Virus record (IMG/VR): IMGVR_UViG_3300017962_000148
Location: 1 to 21,551 of that record
Reading direction: 5' to 3' (one strand)
From: a virus
DNA length: 21,551 nucleotides
Position numbers and translations under genes: made by a program. The notes beneath the pieces were generated by a model, which searched no databases, was not told the origin of the DNA, and saw nothing but the letters and a program-made list of their open reading frames with translations. Each line of letters opens with the position of its first letter. Position 1 is the first letter of the stretch. Below are positions 293-8,753 of the stretch, piece by piece.

Positions 293-928
293 ATGACGAC
301 TAATCTTTCTGATAGTTTTGAGAACATTGCTGACTCAACTGTGTATGGGTTGTTTATGTCCCCAGTTGGTAGATACACCAATAAGCAACACGAAGAACAC
401 AAAACTATCATCCTTGAGTATATCCAATCTCTCTCTGAAGTAAAGAACGAACCACGCCCATTCATCTCTCGTGGTATCACTCAAATGGGTCCAGATAATG
501 TCCTAGAGGTACCACAACTAGCACCAATTAAGGAGATGATTATTGATGCTGTCACTAAGACAAATGCATCCGCTTTCCAATACAATCTCCCAGAAATTGT
601 CATCGCTGATTCATACCTAGAATTAGCAGATAAACAATCAATGTATGCACCACACGAACACTCCAATGTAATATACAGTGGCACATACTTCATCAATTTC
701 GATATAACAAAACACGCCCTACTTAAGTTCAGACGTAACACAGCATCGCCACATTATCCAATCTTTCAACTAACTCACACAGCACAAAATGCCTTCAATC
801 AATTAGACTGTGAAGTCCCATATAATGAAGGTGATGTTATCATTCACCCGCCTAACTTGCAACACGGTTATGAACAAAACTTAAACCCAAATAGAATATC
901 CCTATCCTTCAACATTGCCCCTTTCTAA
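293..928 (+). CDS. 2OG-Fe(II) oxygenase-like protein (2OG-FeII_Oxy_5 type)
   Basis: The 211-aa product resembles the small phage and bacterial 2OG-Fe(II) oxygenases whose core reads H-x-H-x-N...SGxYY...EGD...HxxP...RxSxSFNI. Visible here are PHEHSN (H121, H123), SGTYFINF (129-136), EGDVIIHPP (179-187), a distal His in LQHGYE (H191) and RISLSFNIAPF at the C terminus, where R201 would bind the 2-oxoglutarate carboxylate. By family it would couple 2-oxoglutarate decarboxylation to substrate hydroxylation; the substrate is unknown. Such genes are common in marine T4-like phages. No convincing Shine-Dalgarno precedes the ATG. The first gene after the terminator, it is followed 1 nt after its stop by the HNH gene. 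Confidence 0.72.
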   Translation: MTTNLSDSFENIADSTVYGLFMSPVGRYTNKQHEEHKTIILEYIQSLSEVKNEPRPFISRGITQMGPDNVLEVPQLAPIKEMIIDAVTKTNASAFQYNLPEIVIADSYLELADKQSMYAPHEHSNVIYSGTYFINFDITKHALLKFRRNTASPHYPIFQLTHTAQNAFNQLDCEVPYNEGDVIIHPPNLQHGYEQNLNPNRISLSFNIAPF

Positions 929-929
929 T

Positions 930-1271
930 ATGATCTATCAATTCACTAAAGTAGACGAAACTACCTACAAAGATCAAGATGGTACACTATACAAACCCAT
1001 CCCTAATTACGATGAGTATTACATCACTGAACACGGCAATGTGTTTTCCACAAAGTATGGTAAGTGGAGACAATTAAATACTCACCTCAATGAAAATGGT
1101 TATAGAAGGGTAACACTCAGACAAGAAGGTAAGACAGTTGTTAGAAGAATTGCGCGTCTAGTTGCGGAAGCATTTCTATCAACTAAAACCCCTACTACGA
1201 CTCAGGTTAGACACATCGATGGAGACAAACTTAATGACCATTTCTCTAACTTACGGTGGTTTAATCCGTAA
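930..1271 (+). CDS. HNH endonuclease with NUMOD4-like N-terminal motif
   Basis: The 113-aa product has two parts. Residues about 22-45 (IPNYDEYYITEHGNVFSTK) match the NUMOD4 motif found at the N terminus of many phage HNH homing endonucleases. The C terminus (RHIDGDKLNDHFSNLRW) matches the HNH_3 pattern H-x-D-G-x-x-x-N-[ND]-x-x-x-N-L-x-W. RLVAEAFLS upstream of it is the usual helix of this family. By family it is a sequence- or site-specific DNA nickase/endonuclease, often a free-standing homing gene. I chose ATG 930 because the upstream extension would need a TTG start inside the oxygenase gene. The protein is short and ends right after the HNH motif, as stand-alone members often do. Confidence 0.85.
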   Translation: MIYQFTKVDETTYKDQDGTLYKPIPNYDEYYITEHGNVFSTKYGKWRQLNTHLNENGYRRVTLRQEGKTVVRRIARLVAEAFLSTKTPTTTQVRHIDGDKLNDHFSNLRWFNP

Positions 1272-1277
1272 TAAATA
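1270..1277 (+). promoter_or_regulatory. Late-promoter motif AATAAATA (copy 1 of a tandem pair)
   Basis: AATAAATA fits the NATAAATA late promoter described for T4-like cyanophages (the T4 consensus is TATAAATA, read by a gp55-type sigma factor). It overlaps the stop of the HNH gene and is followed 16 bp later by an identical copy. Transcription would start near 1283. Confidence 0.5.
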
Positions 1278-1285
1278 AAGGGTTA

Positions 1286-1293
1286 AATAAATA
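1286..1293 (+). promoter_or_regulatory. Late-promoter motif AATAAATA (copy 2 of a tandem pair)
   Basis: This second exact AATAAATA has its start 16 bp after the first. Transcription would begin near 1299, just ahead of the TTTTCCACA hairpin, giving a leader of about 220 nt before the first clear gene. Confidence 0.5.
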
Positions 1294-1310
1294 TACTTGA
1301 GTATTTTATC

Positions 1311-1333
1311 TTTTCCACAATACCTGTGGAAAA
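1311..1333 (+). repeat. Perfect 9-bp hairpin of two inverted TTTTCCACA boxes
   Basis: TTTTCCACA (1311-1319), loop ATACC, then TGTGGAAAA (1325-1333). Each arm equals the TTTTCCACA DnaA-box form known from cyanobacterial origins. No T-run follows the stem (the next bases are CTATACTT), so it is not a standard terminator. It could be a DnaA-binding pair, an RNA hairpin at the 5' end of a late transcript, or an unrelated palindrome. Confidence 0.65.
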
Positions 1334-1452
1334 CTATACTTAAACCTGTTGAGAAACTATCATTAATCCACGGAGGATTAGCAACCTTAGGACGTTAGCA
1401 CACGAACGAACGGTTGTCAACACATAGGGACGAAACAGATTCTGACACACTC

Positions 1453-1481
1453 TTGACATATCGGAGAAAATCCTATACATT
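1453..1481 (+). promoter_or_regulatory. Sigma70-like promoter (TTGACA, then TACATT or TATACA)
   Basis: A perfect -35 hexamer TTGACA (1453-1458) is followed at 17 bp by TACATT (1476-1481), or at 15 bp by TATACA (1474-1479). It would start transcription near 1488 and read into the small-gene cluster from 1522 on. This suggests early, host-polymerase-driven expression alongside the late motifs upstream. Confidence 0.5.
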
Positions 1482-1529
1482 ATGAGAGTCCTCAAAGGAA
1501 CACTAATCACCACACAATTCAATGGGTAG
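1482..1529 (+). CDS. Possible 15-aa leader ORF
   Basis: ATG at 1482 opens MRVLKGTLITTQFNG with a stop at 1527-1529 that overlaps the ATG (1522) of the next gene by 8 nt. Eight-nt overlaps are used by genes further down this cluster (2600/2607 and 2754/2761), so coupling is plausible. It has no visible Shine-Dalgarno, and if transcription starts near 1488 it would not be in the mRNA. Treat it as tentative. Confidence 0.15.
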   Translation: MRVLKGTLITTQFNG

Positions 1530-1716
1530 AACATACAAGCGTAACGACGTTTATAGATCAAACCGTCCTAAGAGTTTGAGAGAGAAACGTGCATACGGTT
1601 CGCGTAAACAATCGACGTACTCTGATGGTAACAATTCAGAGCAATTCGATCAAGATCGCAACATCAACCGAAACGGTAAAAACTATCAAATTGACTCGGA
1701 GGATTACTATCAATGA
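1522..1716 (+). CDS. Small hypothetical protein, basic N-terminal half (64 aa)
   Basis: The product has 11 Lys/Arg within its first 30 residues and then a polar N/Q/D-rich tail ending DSEDYYQ. There are no hydrophobic core segments, so it is likely disordered and could bind nucleic acid. It is the first gene of a tightly overlapping cluster downstream of the TTGACA promoter, and its TGA overlaps the start of the next gene (ATGA). The nearest purine-rich Shine-Dalgarno candidate (AAAGGA) is about 22 nt upstream, which is too far, so initiation may be weak or coupled. I do not recognise the family. Confidence 0.65.
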   Translation: MGRTYKRNDVYRSNRPKSLREKRAYGSRKQSTYSDGNNSEQFDQDRNINRNGKNYQIDSEDYYQ

Positions 1717-1862
1717 ATGACGAAGAGTTTCTAACAACAATCACAGCAGACGATTGGATTGAACAAATGCTCGAAGATTCTCTCGACGATATATTTGAAG
1801 ACTTGGAGTTTGATGATCAATCCTATGGGGATATTGACCTCGATTATACTACACAATCGTGA
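1713..1862 (+). CDS. Extremely acidic small protein (49 aa)
   Basis: ATG 1713 overlaps the upstream TGA and has a good Shine-Dalgarno, GGAGG, at 1698-1702. The product begins MNDEEFLTTITADDWIEQML and contains 12 Asp and 6 Glu but no Lys, Arg or His. The middle (about residues 12-32) can form an amphipathic acidic helix (DDWIEQMLEDSLDDIFEDLE). Such composition is typical of DNA-mimic or polymerase-binding phage proteins, but no family is recognised. The basic protein just upstream could be a partner. The gene ends in a GTGA overlap with the next one. Confidence 0.65.
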   Translation: MNDEEFLTTITADDWIEQMLEDSLDDIFEDLEFDDQSYGDIDLDYTTQS

Positions 1863-2047
1863 GCACATTTAGTCTGTATTCGACACTCTATGAGGAGGGA
1901 TCATTGCCCCCTCAAGAGTGTATCGAATGGGTGCAGTATTTGATTGACACTGAACAAGAACCGTGGTACACTGAGTATAAACAACTCAGAGAATATTACG
2001 TTGCCGAAGGGCTATGCTACTCAGTGAATGTTGGGGACGATTTGTGA
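1859..2047 (+). CDS. Small hypothetical protein (62 aa, GTG start)
   Basis: GTG 1859 overlaps the preceding TGA (GTGA). The product contains LYEEGSLPPQECIEWVQYLIDT (split here as LYEEGSLPPQEC and IEWVQYLIDT) and ends YVAEGLCYSVNVGDDL. It resembles small phage proteins with an 'EGxL..EE...YxQxLIDTG' helical core, so I keep the longer start, although a TTG at 1904 has the better ribosome site (GAGGAGG, 1892-1898). Its C terminus is followed by a 119-bp gap with the 30-bp repeats. Function unknown. Confidence 0.55.
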   Translation: MSTFSLYSTLYEEGSLPPQECIEWVQYLIDTEQEPWYTEYKQLREYYVAEGLCYSVNVGDDL

Positions 2048-2067
2048 TAGTTTCGACATATTAAAAA

Positions 2068-2141
2068 GGGTCCCCTATGCTAACCTACAAAAGTATAGGG
2101 TCGCCTATATTATCGAAAACGCAGATTGGGTCCCCCCATAT
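2068..2141 (+). repeat. Three copies of GGGTC[CG]CC with exact 30-bp period
   Basis: GGGTCCCCTAT begins at 2068, GGGTCGCCTAT at 2098 and GGGTCCCCCCATAT at 2128. The starts are exactly 30 bp apart, about three helical turns, so the copies lie on nearly the same DNA face. The units diverge outside the core. They sit in the gap directly upstream of the NlpC/P60-like gene (start 2167). A regulator-binding array is the simplest reading. A partial stem CCCTAT/ATAGGG joins copies 1 and 2 but has no T-run. Confidence 0.5.
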
Positions 2142-2166
2142 ACAAAAAATTTTTCCCAGGTAAATT

Positions 2167-2607
2167 ATGTCTGACAAGTTGATGCAAAAATACTCGGAGG
2201 AGTATGCTGAGTTTCTCGGGAGAGAATGGGGCGGTCAGAGAGGGGGAGGATGTTTCAACCTCCTCTTTGAGTTTGGGAGGAAGACAGGGTACCACGAGTG
2301 CGCTGAGGACTACTCCCTGAACTTCAAAGACTTTCTCAGGAACATCTGGGAACTGGAAGGGTGGACATCTGTCCTGGAATCAGAGGAAGGAGAGGACTTT
2401 GACAAAACAATTATTGAAAAATATGATGTTTTGGTAATGTCATTTGATAACCTCGAACCGAATCGGAGGGCAGGTCGTCTGAAGCATAGTGCTATCTACC
2501 TCGGAGATAGTATTCTATTGCATCAGAAGGCATACGATGTATCACGATTGGAGTATGTGGACTCCTATATACCGTATATTAGACATATACTTCGGAAGAA
2601 TGAGTAA
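2167..2607 (+). CDS. NlpC/P60-like (C40) cysteine hydrolase
   Basis: The 146-aa product follows the layout of small tail-type NlpC/P60 proteins. An N-terminal helix ends in EFLGREWGGQRGGGCFNLL, with C29 as the likely nucleophile at the start of a helix. Then come KYDVLVMSF (the usual 'GDLVLM' strand), H107 in KHSAIYLGD (the usual HVGIYLGD, general base) and H119 in ILLHQ (third catalytic position, usual LHA). The C terminus YIRHIL matches the family's 'yyRh' end. By family it would cut peptide bonds in peptidoglycan; in phage such enzymes sit in tails or act in lysis. The Asp that usually precedes the Cys is Gly here. ATG 2167 has AGG 6 nt upstream. The 3' end overlaps the next gene by 8 nt. 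Confidence 0.68.
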   Translation: MSDKLMQKYSEEYAEFLGREWGGQRGGGCFNLLFEFGRKTGYHECAEDYSLNFKDFLRNIWELEGWTSVLESEEGEDFDKTIIEKYDVLVMSFDNLEPNRRAGRLKHSAIYLGDSILLHQKAYDVSRLEYVDSYIPYIRHILRKNE

Positions 2608-3090: not shown

Positions 3091-3138
3091 GTGATTCAGA
3101 ACCGTTACCCCCGCGAACGTCGTAACTATTCTAATACT

Positions 3139-3669
3139 ATGGAAATCATTGACAATTTTTTACCTGAAGAGGTGTTTCAGGAAATACGTAGCGTGTTTGC
3201 GGGACAGGACTTCCCTTGGTACGTTAATGAAGCAAAGGTAATGCACGTTGCTCGTATGTTCGATCCAGAACTACAGGCAAAGGAGATTTACAACTGGCAA
3301 ATGGTTAATTACGTTTATTTGGGTGGACAACCCAGAAACGAGTTTTACAACGTCCTCCTGCCCCTTGTAGATGCCTTACAACCGCGTGCGCTGATCAGGA
3401 TCAAGGCAAACCTGAATCACCATACAGATGAATTACAGGAGTATGCATTTCATACCGACTGTGGTGAGTATGGTACCGATGAATTTGCTGGAGCGACCAC
3501 TGCAATCTACTATCTGAATGATAACGATGGGTACACTAGGTTTGAAGATGGTACCAAGGTAGAATCTAAAGCAAACCGTCTAGTACGTTTCCCTGTGAAT
3601 ACACCTCACGCTGGTACATCTACTACTGATCAAAAGTATCGTATTGTCCTTAACCTGAATTATTTCTGA
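3139..3669 (+). CDS. 2OG-Fe(II) oxygenase (HxD...H...R)
   Basis: The 176-aa product begins MEIIDNFLPEEVFQEIRSVF, a common N terminus for phage 2OG-Fe(II) oxygenases. The complete cofactor set is visible: FHTDC with H105 and D107, the distal ligand in TPHAG (H157), and R168 in KYRIVLNLNYF for 2-oxoglutarate. It should bind Fe(II) and hydroxylate or otherwise oxidise an unknown substrate, possibly protein or nucleic acid. An in-frame GTG at 3091, directly after the previous stop, would add 16 residues (MIQNRYPRERRNYSNT); neither start has a clear ribosome site, and I prefer ATG 3139 because it matches the family start. The TGA overlaps the next ATG (TGATG). This is the second oxygenase in 3.4 kb, and it is clearly different from the first. 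Confidence 0.82.
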   Translation: MEIIDNFLPEEVFQEIRSVFAGQDFPWYVNEAKVMHVARMFDPELQAKEIYNWQMVNYVYLGGQPRNEFYNVLLPLVDALQPRALIRIKANLNHHTDELQEYAFHTDCGEYGTDEFAGATTAIYYLNDNDGYTRFEDGTKVESKANRLVRFPVNTPHAGTSTTDQKYRIVLNLNYF

Positions 3670-3936: not shown

Positions 3937-6900
3937 GTGGCAATTTACCTGCAGGAGACTGGGCGCTCTTACGAGAACCCAGTCGATTCTGAAGATTACA
4001 ATAAAACCTGGAACGGTGTAGAGAACGTACCCAACGGTTACCAGATCACCTATGAGGATGAGGGACCTGGTGGGTACAAATTTGGGCGTGATGAAGTATT
4101 CTATATTGGTGATAGACAAAAAACGTGTGTAGCGTTCTGCGATAGTGAAAGAAATACTATCTACAGATGGTACTCTGGTAAGCAAAGAGACCACTTATAC
4201 ACAAAGAAGCAAGAACTAGACAGCGGTTACACCGATTTCCGTTCGTACAATAGGGAACCGAGACAAAGAAGCGCAAAATACTTCACCCTGATGAAGTCTA
4301 GTGTCTCTGGTACCACAGCATTATACCGTGCCTACGACTCGGGTCAGAATGATTCCAGACTACAGACTGGAAGTGGATCTGAATTACTTGGATATATTTG
4401 GTCTTCACAATCTGCTGCAACCTCTTCTGGTCTACTGACATCGGGAGAGAGCATCTTAGCACTCCACGAATACATTGCTCCTAGCAATGGAAGGGGTACA
4501 GATCACTTTTATACTATAAACCCTGCGGCAGAAGTTAATTTACAAACAGGGGTACCTGGAGTACCTGACTGTAAGGAACCTGGTTCTGAGGACTATCAGT
4601 ATGTTGGTGTTGTTGGTTATGTTACCTTAACACCTGGTCCTAAGAGTGTTGCACAGTATCTTGATATTGGTGGACCCCAGAGTACAGGTCTAGTAAACCG
4701 TAGTGGTTGGTATTCTTGGGATACGACACCACCAACAACCTACACAGAGATTAATTACCTTAAGGATAAGGATGGTGTACCTGCTACATCAAACTACGGT
4801 TGGGGATTCAATGTTGGTATATTAAGCACCGATGCATACTTTGAGTGGTATTACGGCAAGAACGCTGCTGTGAAGGCATCTGTGCCCCGCTCATTGAACT
4901 TTCACGATGCCTTTGAGGGTCAGTTTGTATTCTATCTTTATGATACAACTAATCCCTGGAATGGACCGATCTATGGTATCAACTTCTTTGAGACTGATGC
5001 ACCGTGTCTTCCTACCACGTATCAGCAAGGCACTCCTCCTCCAGAACCGACTCTAACGTACCACACGTACAATTATGAGATCGATCCTGACGTTTGGAGA
5101 ACCCAGAAGACTCATATCTTTGTAGATGCACCCTCAGGTGAACTTGGTGCCAATGAATCATTCTGGACTGCTGGTACCGATGATCACCGTATCTTCTTTA
5201 GGTACACCACTTCTAGTGGATTCTTCCTCGTTGGTGAGCGCATTAACGGTTGGATGATCACTGCTTGTCGCTATTTTGGCGATGAGATGAACTGTGGTTA
5301 TATGGAATTGACGCAAATTAACCAAGAAGGTACGGGAAATACGTTCTCATATGGTCAAACATTCACTTCCGATAACGGTGGAGGCATAACAGTCCTTGCT
5401 GGATACGGAATTAAGAACAAAGCAGCGTTCTGGGGAGTGTATGAGTTCCCCAAACAGGTAACATATACCCGTGTAGAGATCGATAAGAACGCTCTGATCC
5501 CTCAAAGATCCATTGATTCCGCAGTTATTCAGTGTAAAATCAACAAACAAGGTCAAGTTACATCAGTCAATATCGTAAATAGCGGTAAAGACTATGTAAA
5601 TCCACAACTTTCTGTAGAATTTCCAGAGACAATCCGCGATCAGGGGTTTGTTGACCCCGCTCAAAACACTCCTGAGTTCTTTGAAGACGATTCTACTACT
5701 AAAGTTCAACTGGATGTTGAAGATGAGACAGATTTTGCCCGCACCGACAAGCAATTTAGAAAGTCTGCTGCGGATTTGAGTAAGAAAAAGTACGTCAACA
5801 AGTCAGATTTCACGGGTACCCTGGAAGAAGCAGAGTTTACTGCGGTTCTTGATGAGAGAGGATCCATCATTGACGTAATTATTACCAATCCTGGGCGCGG
5901 ATATGCACCTGGAAGGAACTGTCCTATCATTGTAGTAGACAGGGAACAAGGAAAACGCACAGATACTTACGTTGGTGAGGGTATGTCTCCCGTGGAAAGT
6001 GAGATCAATAACTCACTTTCTGGGTTTGGTGTATCAGATGCAGCGGCAAACGCGCAACTTCAAGCAGATAGAGACGTTATTCTTAACCTATCACAAGAGT
6101 TTAATAAAACTAAAGAGATATCATACAACCGTGGTTACATCAAAATGGGTGATGTTAACATAGAACAACCAGAAAAGTTCTGTAACAGCATCATTCCTGG
6201 CAGTTGTTTCTCACCAAATTCTGGTGGAGACTGGGCAGATTTCGGATCTAGATTTGATCAGAGCACGATTTTCAACAATTTGCGCTCTATGGATCCAAAC
6301 TTTAACGCCAACAACCCTATGTTGGACAGTTTGTGGTCCCAATCCAAACCAACATCCAACCTTATCAAGGAAAGAATGAGTTCTGGGATGCCTGGAATCT
6401 TCCCAGGCGGGTGTATTGAGGTTGCTACCGCTAATTTATACAGTACCAGACGCTTTTTTGACATTCCTTGCCCCTATGTTTCTTATAATGCTGACGGTGA
6501 TGAGATTGTTTACGGTTATATGCCGTTCAAATACTGTGCTTCTAAGCAAGATACCGCGAAAATTAGCGTCAGTATTCAAGTAGAGGGTGATGTTAGTGGT
6601 GCAGGCGCGGCAGTAAACACCAGATTTATGAACTGGTTGAAGTCTTTGAACAGACCACAACTCACAAGACCGCGTAAATTCCCTGGAAGTGGTGGTAACC
6701 TCTTCCAAAAGACGCATCCCTGCAGTAATGGTGCAGCAAAAGGCAGATGTTTTGAGTCAAGTAACGGACAATACACGTTCGTTCCGATTGGTGGAGATGA
6801 AAATACGTTCGATTACGGACTAAACCAGGGTATGACAGAGCTTGATCAGTTGGAAACTTGGATTTCTGACAACTATAGTGCGTACACTCCATTGTTCTGG

Positions 6901-7914: not shown

Positions 7915-7918
7915 ATAG

Positions 7919-7927
7919 TGCTATAAT
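7919..7927 (+). promoter_or_regulatory. Extended -10 promoter TGCTATAAT
   Basis: TG-C-TATAAT is a perfect extended -10 element of host sigma70-type polymerase. It sits 5 nt after the PAAR-like stop and 23 nt before the next ATG, and would start transcription near 7934. The matching -35 window (7899-7904, TGTACT) is weak, as is usual for extended -10 promoters; TTGCAG at 7904-7909 is only 12 bp away. It differs from the late motif used elsewhere in the structural module. Confidence 0.45.
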
Positions 7928-7950
7928 TTCAGAGTTCTACACACAAGATT

Positions 7951-8100
7951 ATGGCACGAGCAAAAGTTGGTCTTTCTGGCAAAAAGATTATTGTATCTAC
8001 TCCAAAGTGTACTCGTCAGGGTAACAGTAAGAATACAAAGTATGCTGCCACGAGTCGTAACAAAGCGAAGAAGAAGTATCGCGGTCAAGGCAAGCGATAA
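7951..8100 (+). CDS. Highly basic small protein (49 aa)
   Basis: ATG 7951 to TAA 8098-8100 encodes MARAKVGLSGKKIIVSTPKC followed by a K/R/N-rich tail ending KKKYRGQGKR. It has 16 Lys/Arg and no acidic residue. The composition suggests binding to nucleic acid or to an acidic virion surface. A short conserved basic protein near gene 25 is, to my recollection, usual in cyanophages, but I do not know a function. It is preceded by the TGCTATAAT promoter, and its stop codon lies within a GATAAATA late motif. Confidence 0.7.
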   Translation: MARAKVGLSGKKIIVSTPKCTRQGNSKNTKYAATSRNKAKKKYRGQGKR

Positions 8101-8103
8101 ATA
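8096..8103 (+). promoter_or_regulatory. Late-promoter motif GATAAATA
   Basis: GATAAATA matches the NATAAATA late-promoter motif of T4-like cyanophages. It overlaps the stop of the 49-aa gene. Transcription would start near 8109, leaving a leader of about 49 nt before the 61-aa gene and then gp25-gp6. Confidence 0.6.
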
Positions 8104-8130
8104 ACCACAGCGATAGTAACCGCTATAAAA

Positions 8131-8154
8131 GTTCTACTACTTAGTAGGGAGAAC
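8131..8154 (+). promoter_or_regulatory. Hairpin that sequesters the ribosome site of the 61-aa gene
   Basis: GTTCT (8131-8135) pairs with AGAAC (8150-8154), and CTAC (8137-8140) pairs with GTAG (8144-8147), with a TTA loop and small bulges. The likely Shine-Dalgarno AGGGAG (8146-8151) lies in the 3' arm, 6 nt before ATG 8158. Folding would reduce initiation, so the late leader may be under translational control. Confidence 0.4.
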
Positions 8155-8157
8155 GAA

Positions 8158-8343
8158 ATGGCGAACCATCCAATTCCAGATCAATCTCAAGAGTTCATTG
8201 AGTCAGGTATGGTACTCATAACTGATCCAAGAGCTGATAAATACTTAAACCGAACGAAACCCAACGATCCCCCTAAGGATCGCTATTCTAGACAATGTGG
8301 AGGTGCAGGTGGTTTCGATGATTACGTCGAACGCTGGCATTAA
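8158..8343 (+). CDS. Hypothetical protein (61 aa) upstream of gene 25
   Basis: Has the best ribosome site in this area (AGGGAG, 6 nt before the ATG). The product begins MANHPIPDQSQEFIESGMVL and ends in a Gly/aromatic tail, GGAGGFDDYVERWH. It is hydrophilic, with one cysteine and no recognised domain. Its TAA overlaps the ATG of gene 25 by one base, so the two are probably co-translated; a minor baseplate component is possible. A second GATAAATA motif lies inside it. Confidence 0.65.
   Translation: MANHPIPDQSQEFIESGMVLITDPRADKYLNRTKPNDPPKDRYSRQCGGAGGFDDYVERWH
8236..8243 (+). promoter_or_regulatory. Internal late-promoter motif GATAAATA
   Basis: This exact repeat of the motif at 8096 lies within the 61-aa gene, with its 3' end 99 nt upstream of the gene 25 start. 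It could give gene 25 and gene 6 extra late transcription. It encodes Asp-Lys-Tyr in frame, so chance occurrence is possible. Confidence 0.35.
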
Positions 8344-8753
8344 TGGCATACAAATTTAGAGCAGAGAGGACGCTCAGTAGAGCGTTCAAAGACTTCAGTA
8401 TTGGATTCAGACCGAACCCCAATACTGAAGATTTTTCTGTAGTTAAAAATGAGAATGCTATTAAGCAGTCTGTGAGAAACCTTGTTCTCACTGGATTTTA
8501 TGAGAGACCTTTCCAACCCCGTAAAGGTTCTCGCTTGAGAGAAATGCTCTTTGAACCATTTGATGTATTTCTTGCTGAGGACATCAGAGAAGAGATTTCC
8601 AACGTAGTCAAAAGATTTGAACCCAGAGTCGTACTCAATAGTGTACGGGTCAAGGAGGGTGAAGAAACTAATACTATTGAAGTTGAACTTGATTACACTA
8701 TCGTTGGTGAAACTCTTATACAAACAGTTGATTTCCTCTTAGAGAGAACCTAA
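8343..8753 (+). CDS. 25: Baseplate wedge protein gp25
   Basis: The 136-aa product is close to the T4 gp25 length (132 aa). It shows the gp25/TssE family hallmarks: IKQSVRNLVLTGFYERPFQP (40-59), GSRLREMLFEPFD (62-74) and the conserved EPR triad at 93-95 (RFEPRVVLNSV), followed by the C-terminal strands. gp25 sits in the inner baseplate with gp6 and gp53 and helps start sheath assembly around the tube. The start overlaps the stop of the 61-aa gene, and gene 6 follows 3 nt after its TAA, the conserved 25-6 order of T4-like phages. Confidence 0.93.
   Translation: MAYKFRAERTLSRAFKDFSIGFRPNPNTEDFSVVKNENAIKQSVRNLVLTGFYERPFQPRKGSRLREMLFEPFDVFLAEDIREEISNVVKRFEPRVVLNSVRVKEGEETNTIEVELDYTIVGETLIQTVDFLLERT

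Follow-up and report, generated by a model that had tools for sequence, protein, structure and literature searches.

A conserved element with host-type DnaA boxes upstream of gene 25 in T4-like cyanophages looks like a replication origin

Analysis of a 21,551-nt stretch of DNA from a marine T4-like cyanophage (positions 1 to 21,551 of IMG/VR record IMGVR_UViG_3300017962_000148, referred to here as the window) together with its relatives revealed a compact element composed of an AT-rich repeat, two to eight apparent DnaA boxes aligned along a single face of the helix, and two predicted promoters of the sigma70 type that diverge from each other. It is flanked by a gene for a UvsW-like helicase and by gene 25. 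Judged from its composition, the element looks like a phage origin that recruits, or sequesters, the host initiator. We assign roughly even odds (about 0.5) to the reading that it is a phage replication origin in the style of T4 oriF to which host DnaA boxes have been added.

In the window, two exact 9-bp arms face each other at 1311-1333: TTTTCCACA at 1311-1319 on the plus strand (box 1) and, beyond the spacer ATACC, TGTGGAAAA at 1325-1333 on the minus strand (box 2), convergent with box 1 at a start-to-start distance of 14 bp. A degenerate third box, TGTTGAGAA, follows on the minus strand at 1347-1355, 22 bp after box 2; relatives carry TGTGGAAAA or TGTGGAATA at the matching place, ~21 bp after box 2, and the copy in the window is probably a decayed box. 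A further exact box is found at 1044-1052, within the neighboring HNH gene. The preliminary description of the palindrome was accurate, with perfect arms and the motif AATAAATA at 1270 and 1286, while its placement of the site in the only sizeable non-coding gap was wrong, a gap of comparable size being present at 7915-8157 (243 bp). A perfect 9-bp palindrome with a short loop is ordinary by itself, and another such inverted repeat occurs in the window at 5995-6020; the unusual part is the presence of an exact box in both arms. The pattern TTTTCCACA-N5-TGTGGAAAA was recovered from 78 IMG/VR stretches, compared with a single stretch for a control palindrome of the same composition, ACACCTTTT-N5-AAAAGGTGT. 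A BLAST search of window positions 850-2200 against GenBank phages gave no match, and searches for Rfam families and tRNAs returned nothing.

The arms had been proposed to represent DnaA boxes of the cyanobacterial type, and host sequences support this assignment. In the Synechococcus/Prochlorococcus family, the region upstream of dnaN contains TTTTCCACA more often than any other box form, with 19 exact copies in 15.6 kb versus none in 25 kb of dnaN coding sequence, and the literature on cyanobacterial oriC agrees on the same box (PMC4674748). The second commonest form in these upstream regions (L440-L469) is TTTTCCCCA, with 16 copies versus the 19 of exact TTTTCCACA. Domain IV of DnaA was not detected in recognizable form in 12 phage genomes; host DnaA would therefore be the natural ligand, and it probably binds the phage boxes.

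The GenBank phages with box matches are myoviruses of Synechococcus and Prochlorococcus belonging to the Kyanoviridae. Almost all copies of TTTTCCACA in the 78 palindrome loci are grouped within a few hundred bases, and clusters of exact TTTTCCACA are located 2-8.5 kb upstream of gene 25 (median 4.1 kb) in 94 of the 94 IMG/VR loci that hold both. Because these 94 loci had been picked for their boxes, a further sample was drawn by gp25 alone, and this revealed 51 exact boxes in 250.7 kb upstream of the gene versus 2 in 244.8 kb downstream. Of the 30 loci sampled, 14 had a cluster; some of the 30 do not extend as far as the site. Whole-genome box scans covered 12 Kyanoviridae genomes, and a density scan of six of these, all complete, showed box density to peak, in every one, within a window lying a few kilobases upstream of gene 25. 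In Syn9, the element is found at 52.5-52.8 kb, between the helicase gene and gp25, and in S-PM2 it lies at ~19.2 kb.

The spacing of the boxes is helically phased. Direct repeats peak at 11-12, 21-22, 32-33, 42-43 and 54 bp and convergent boxes at 13-14, 23-25 and 35-36 bp, with an overall period of ~10.5 bp, in scans that required two boxes within 9-39 bp or a 14-bp pair. A small sample not selected by spacing (n = 13) gave direct spacings of 11, 12, 21, 22 and 24 bp, mostly 11-12 and 21-22 bp. Several loci harbor additional arrangements: two distinct box groups ~1 kb apart in L173 (2058-3105), a second box pair ~1 kb away in S-RIM32 and ACG-2014d, and, downstream of the boxes in L021, L057 and L072, iteron-like arrays of repeats containing AAATG(T/C), such as ATAAATGCTC repeated in L057.

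The left neighbor of the element is a 2OG-Fe(II) oxygenase gene (293-928, plus strand), as it is in S-RIM32, S-PM2, L025 and L038. An HNH/NUMOD4 homing endonuclease gene (915-1271, plus strand) sits between this gene and the element, adjoining the AT repeat and stopping just before it; the HNH gene is present in L470, L483 and L486 and missing from L025, L063, L038, L074, L013 and L041; in these, the 2OG gene directly borders the boxes. To the right lies a 64-aa ORF beginning MGRTYKRND (phrog_1464; 1522-1716, plus strand), whose coding sequence in L035, L037, L055, L025 and L494 itself holds exact boxes, sometimes the whole TTTTCCACA-N5-TGTGGAAAA. The right-hand anchor of the conserved position is the gp25 baseplate wedge gene (8343-8753, plus strand), identified by PF04965 and phrog_261. 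Because the helicase gene is absent from the 21.5-kb window, the helicase flank rests on relatives: the element is flanked by gp25 and a UvsW-like helicase (phrog_16, a family shared with T4 UvsW) in S-H38, S-SSM5, Syn9 and L009, with a distance and orientation of gene 25 unlike those of T4. Elsewhere in the window, at 3091-3669, a match to phrog_274 ("DNA endonuclease V") has the Pfam domain of a 2OG-Fe(II) oxygenase, and the PHROG name is doubtful.

The AT-rich repeat occupies 1270-1309 (plus strand, AATAAATAAAGGGTTAAATAAATATACTTGAGTATTTTAT), with AAATAA at 1273 and again at 1285, 12 bp apart, and is a candidate unwinding element. This segment aligns with AAATGTATTAAAAAATATAnnTGAGTG of the relatives, in which the AT-rich repeat reads AAATGTATTAAAAAATATA..TGAGTG. 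With up to three mismatches allowed, the 15-mer AAATGTATTAAAAAA occurs near 30 of 80 elements versus 14 of 337 control windows. An AT-rich stretch beside the boxes, as expected of an oriC-type origin, is conserved in the family, and its suggested role in unwinding is that of a candidate.

Past the boxes, a conserved block reads TTGACA-N17-TAnnnT on the minus strand, a predicted promoter aimed into the AT-rich stretch as would be expected of an oriF-type origin. In the window it corresponds to a putative antisense sigma70-type promoter at 1392-1420 (TTGACA at 1420-1415, a 17-bp spacer, TAACGT at 1397-1392) that points into the boxes and the AT repeat. TTGACA-like and TA hexamers separated by N17 in the antisense direction were found in 42 of 80 elements, compared with 9-18 of 80 for other spacer lengths and 3-24% of control windows; this test was used in place of an earlier strict regular expression for the block, which had matched 15 of 79 loci, some by chance. 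A putative sense promoter (1453-1481, plus strand; TTGACA at 1453-1458, 17 bp, TACATT at 1476-1481) diverges from the antisense one and would serve the 64-aa ORF; the nearest relatives have a CTTGACA-N17-TATAAT-like promoter at its place.

The origin reading thus draws on a conserved position, host-type boxes, helical phasing, an AT repeat, a predicted antisense promoter and the lack of a detectable phage DnaA. T4 oriF comprises a promoter and an AT-rich unwinding element, and its transcript primes replication (PMC3016281). We infer DnaA binding, transcription and origin activity at the cyanophage element. At early times of infection, leftward transcription by host RNA polymerase would start from 1392-1420 and cross the boxes and the AT repeat; DnaA of the host, once on the boxes, would assist in opening the AT stretch, or keep it open; the transcript would prime DNA synthesis as at oriF; and the phage gp59/gp41/gp43 machinery would load at the opened AT stretch, with later rounds of replication proceeding via recombination as in T4.

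The boxes themselves are not universal, an exact cluster at the locus upstream of gene 25 being absent from P-SSM2, ACG-2014f, S-B68 and S-RSM4. The AT repeat, the promoter block and the neighboring genes are retained without exact boxes in L483, L486 and L093 (S-RSM4); the DnaA boxes are therefore apparently not essential to the function of the element, and these lineages constitute natural variants informative on the role of the boxes. This distribution is consistent with a T4-like core origin in which DnaA boxes would be a common but dispensable addition. Counting against an origin or DnaA role is the decay of one arm in the nearest relative, L470: there the left arm reads CTCTCCACA, the right box is exact and a third box, TGTGGAATA, occupies the place of TGTTGAGAA in the window. 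L470 shares both the HNH gene and the element with the window. In six genomes, GC skew does not switch at the element; the test is a weak one in phages whose replication relies on recombination. In Syn9, the extremes of GC skew and hexamer bias are located elsewhere, and TA skew provides no support for an origin.

Alternatively, the boxes may serve as a sink, in which phage copies bind host DnaA, or promote its ATP hydrolysis in a datA-like manner, and thereby halt initiation on the host chromosome. The two to eight exact boxes per element and the extra boxes in the adjoining phrog_1464 coding sequence are consistent with this proposal. Exact boxes are also few in the host (8 in the 2.2 Mb of one marine host genome), and many phage copies could therefore outnumber them; titration of DnaA by extra-chromosomal boxes has been described in E. 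coli (PMC5835720). However, a sink could work without a fixed map position, an AT repeat or paired promoters, and the element in the window has just two exact boxes and a decayed third. We consider a role as a sink unlikely.

DnaA doubles as a transcription factor in bacteria, and box-bound host DnaA could act as a repressor or activator of the two diverging promoters, so that early phage transcription would follow the state of the host cell cycle. Promoter-like sites are indeed found mostly 60-200 bp from the boxes, on each strand in about half of the elements. Such a switch is nonetheless quite doubtful, since the boxes show no fixed-distance overlap with the promoters, and this reading accounts neither for the AT repeat nor for the choice of the locus upstream of gene 25.

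The preliminary description had offered a host-DnaA-responsive site, a replication element or a hairpin protecting the 5' end of a late leader RNA; the first two are supported as likely, while the RNA hairpin and the tandem late promoters also proposed there are not. The reading as an RNA hairpin, whether one protecting a leader RNA, terminating transcription or undergoing processing, can point to a stable predicted fold (-14.5 kcal/mol, z -4.95, with the additional arms TTGAGTAT/ATACTTAA). Against it, no T-run follows the palindrome, in agreement with the preliminary description, and an intrinsic terminator is rejected; neither compensatory changes nor an Rfam match were found. Among 48 elements not chosen for a hairpin, only six contain a box pair with a short loop, most elements having direct or more widely spaced boxes and the short hairpin being one of several layouts. 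In S-H38, three direct boxes follow one another at 12-bp intervals and no hairpin is present, and the boxes of ACG-2014d and P-SSM7 are direct as well: the box is kept and the pairing is not. Changes in the arms broke 11 pairs and compensated none, with both arms exact in six, and one arm drifts without the other. The comparison of relatives that had been suggested as a check thus shows that the box sequence is kept and that pairing across a 5-nt spacer generally is not, which favors DNA boxes and makes an RNA element very improbable.

The two AATAAATA motifs (1270-1277 and 1286-1293, starts 16 bp apart) fall inside the AT-rich repeat and had been taken for tandem late promoters, AATAAATA matching the cyanophage late consensus NATAAATA (PMC2984593). 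Two copies in the window are at chance level (1.06 expected; at least two in 31 of 100 shuffles), and the relatives retain the AT repeat with altered sequence, the second AATAAATA copy being lost in L470, L473 and L475. No late-promoter motif (TATAAATA/NATAAATA) was found conserved at a fixed position across the elements of relatives, and ATAAATA occurs in 15 of 80 elements versus 57 of 80 relatives within 200 bp upstream of gp25, the proper place for a late promoter. It is accordingly very improbable that the site consists of T4-type late promoters in tandem, beside a palindrome that is there by coincidence.

For the start of replication in the abundant T4-like cyanophages of marine waters, the literature we found offers one computational prediction for one phage, and a short, defined and conserved element bearing initiator sites of the host opens the question to experiment. 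Such an element would connect phage replication with the host cell cycle or reveal a means of stopping host replication. The combination of boxes, AT repeat and promoter pair upstream of gene 25 also provides a landmark in DNA, one that existing annotations overlay with small ORFs of doubtful reality, for example at the Syn9 element. We found no description of DnaA boxes or origins of this kind in cyanophages in the open-access literature, an absence that does not prove novelty; DnaA-box origins and T4 origins are each known, and no report of the two together at a single conserved position in a lytic phage family was found there. Our broadest proposal, which we hold tentatively and at somewhat less than even odds, is that the genomes of lytic T4-like cyanophages include, across the family, a mimic of the host chromosome origin, in which host DnaA would join a promoter-primed T4-style origin at the place equivalent to oriF, coupling phage replication to the host initiator and drawing that initiator off the host chromosome.

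Among the closest known systems is the single theta origin predicted for Syn9 (Weigele et al. 2007, as cited in PMC2984593). Syn9 belongs to the same phage family and has the element, but the computed skew extremes lie away from it. E. coli datA is similarly a compact group of DnaA boxes able in principle to bind many DnaA molecules, but is chromosomal, and the portion of PMC5835720 consulted describes no AT repeat with a promoter pair for it. In the T4 annotation, oriF (ori(uvsY)) lies beside gene 25 with uvsW nearby, and the cyanophage element resembles it in its proximity to gene 25 and a UvsW-type helicase gene and in having a putative promoter followed by an AT-rich stretch; this oriF-like neighborhood is suggestive and is not proof of an origin. 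In contrast to oriF, the cyanophage element is located kilobases (occupied by small ORFs) upstream of a differently oriented gene 25, its promoter looks like plain sigma70 rather than the MotA-dependent middle type, and it carries boxes, whereas DnaA is unmentioned in a review of T4 initiation (PMC3016281). Lastly, cyanobacterial oriC, located beside dnaN, shares the TTTTCCACA box and has several copies in a non-coding stretch (PMC4674748), while the phage element has neither dnaN nor dnaA beside it, arranges its boxes in tighter, helically phased pairs and is accompanied by diverging promoters of apparent sigma70 type in a lytic phage that carries replisome genes of its own.
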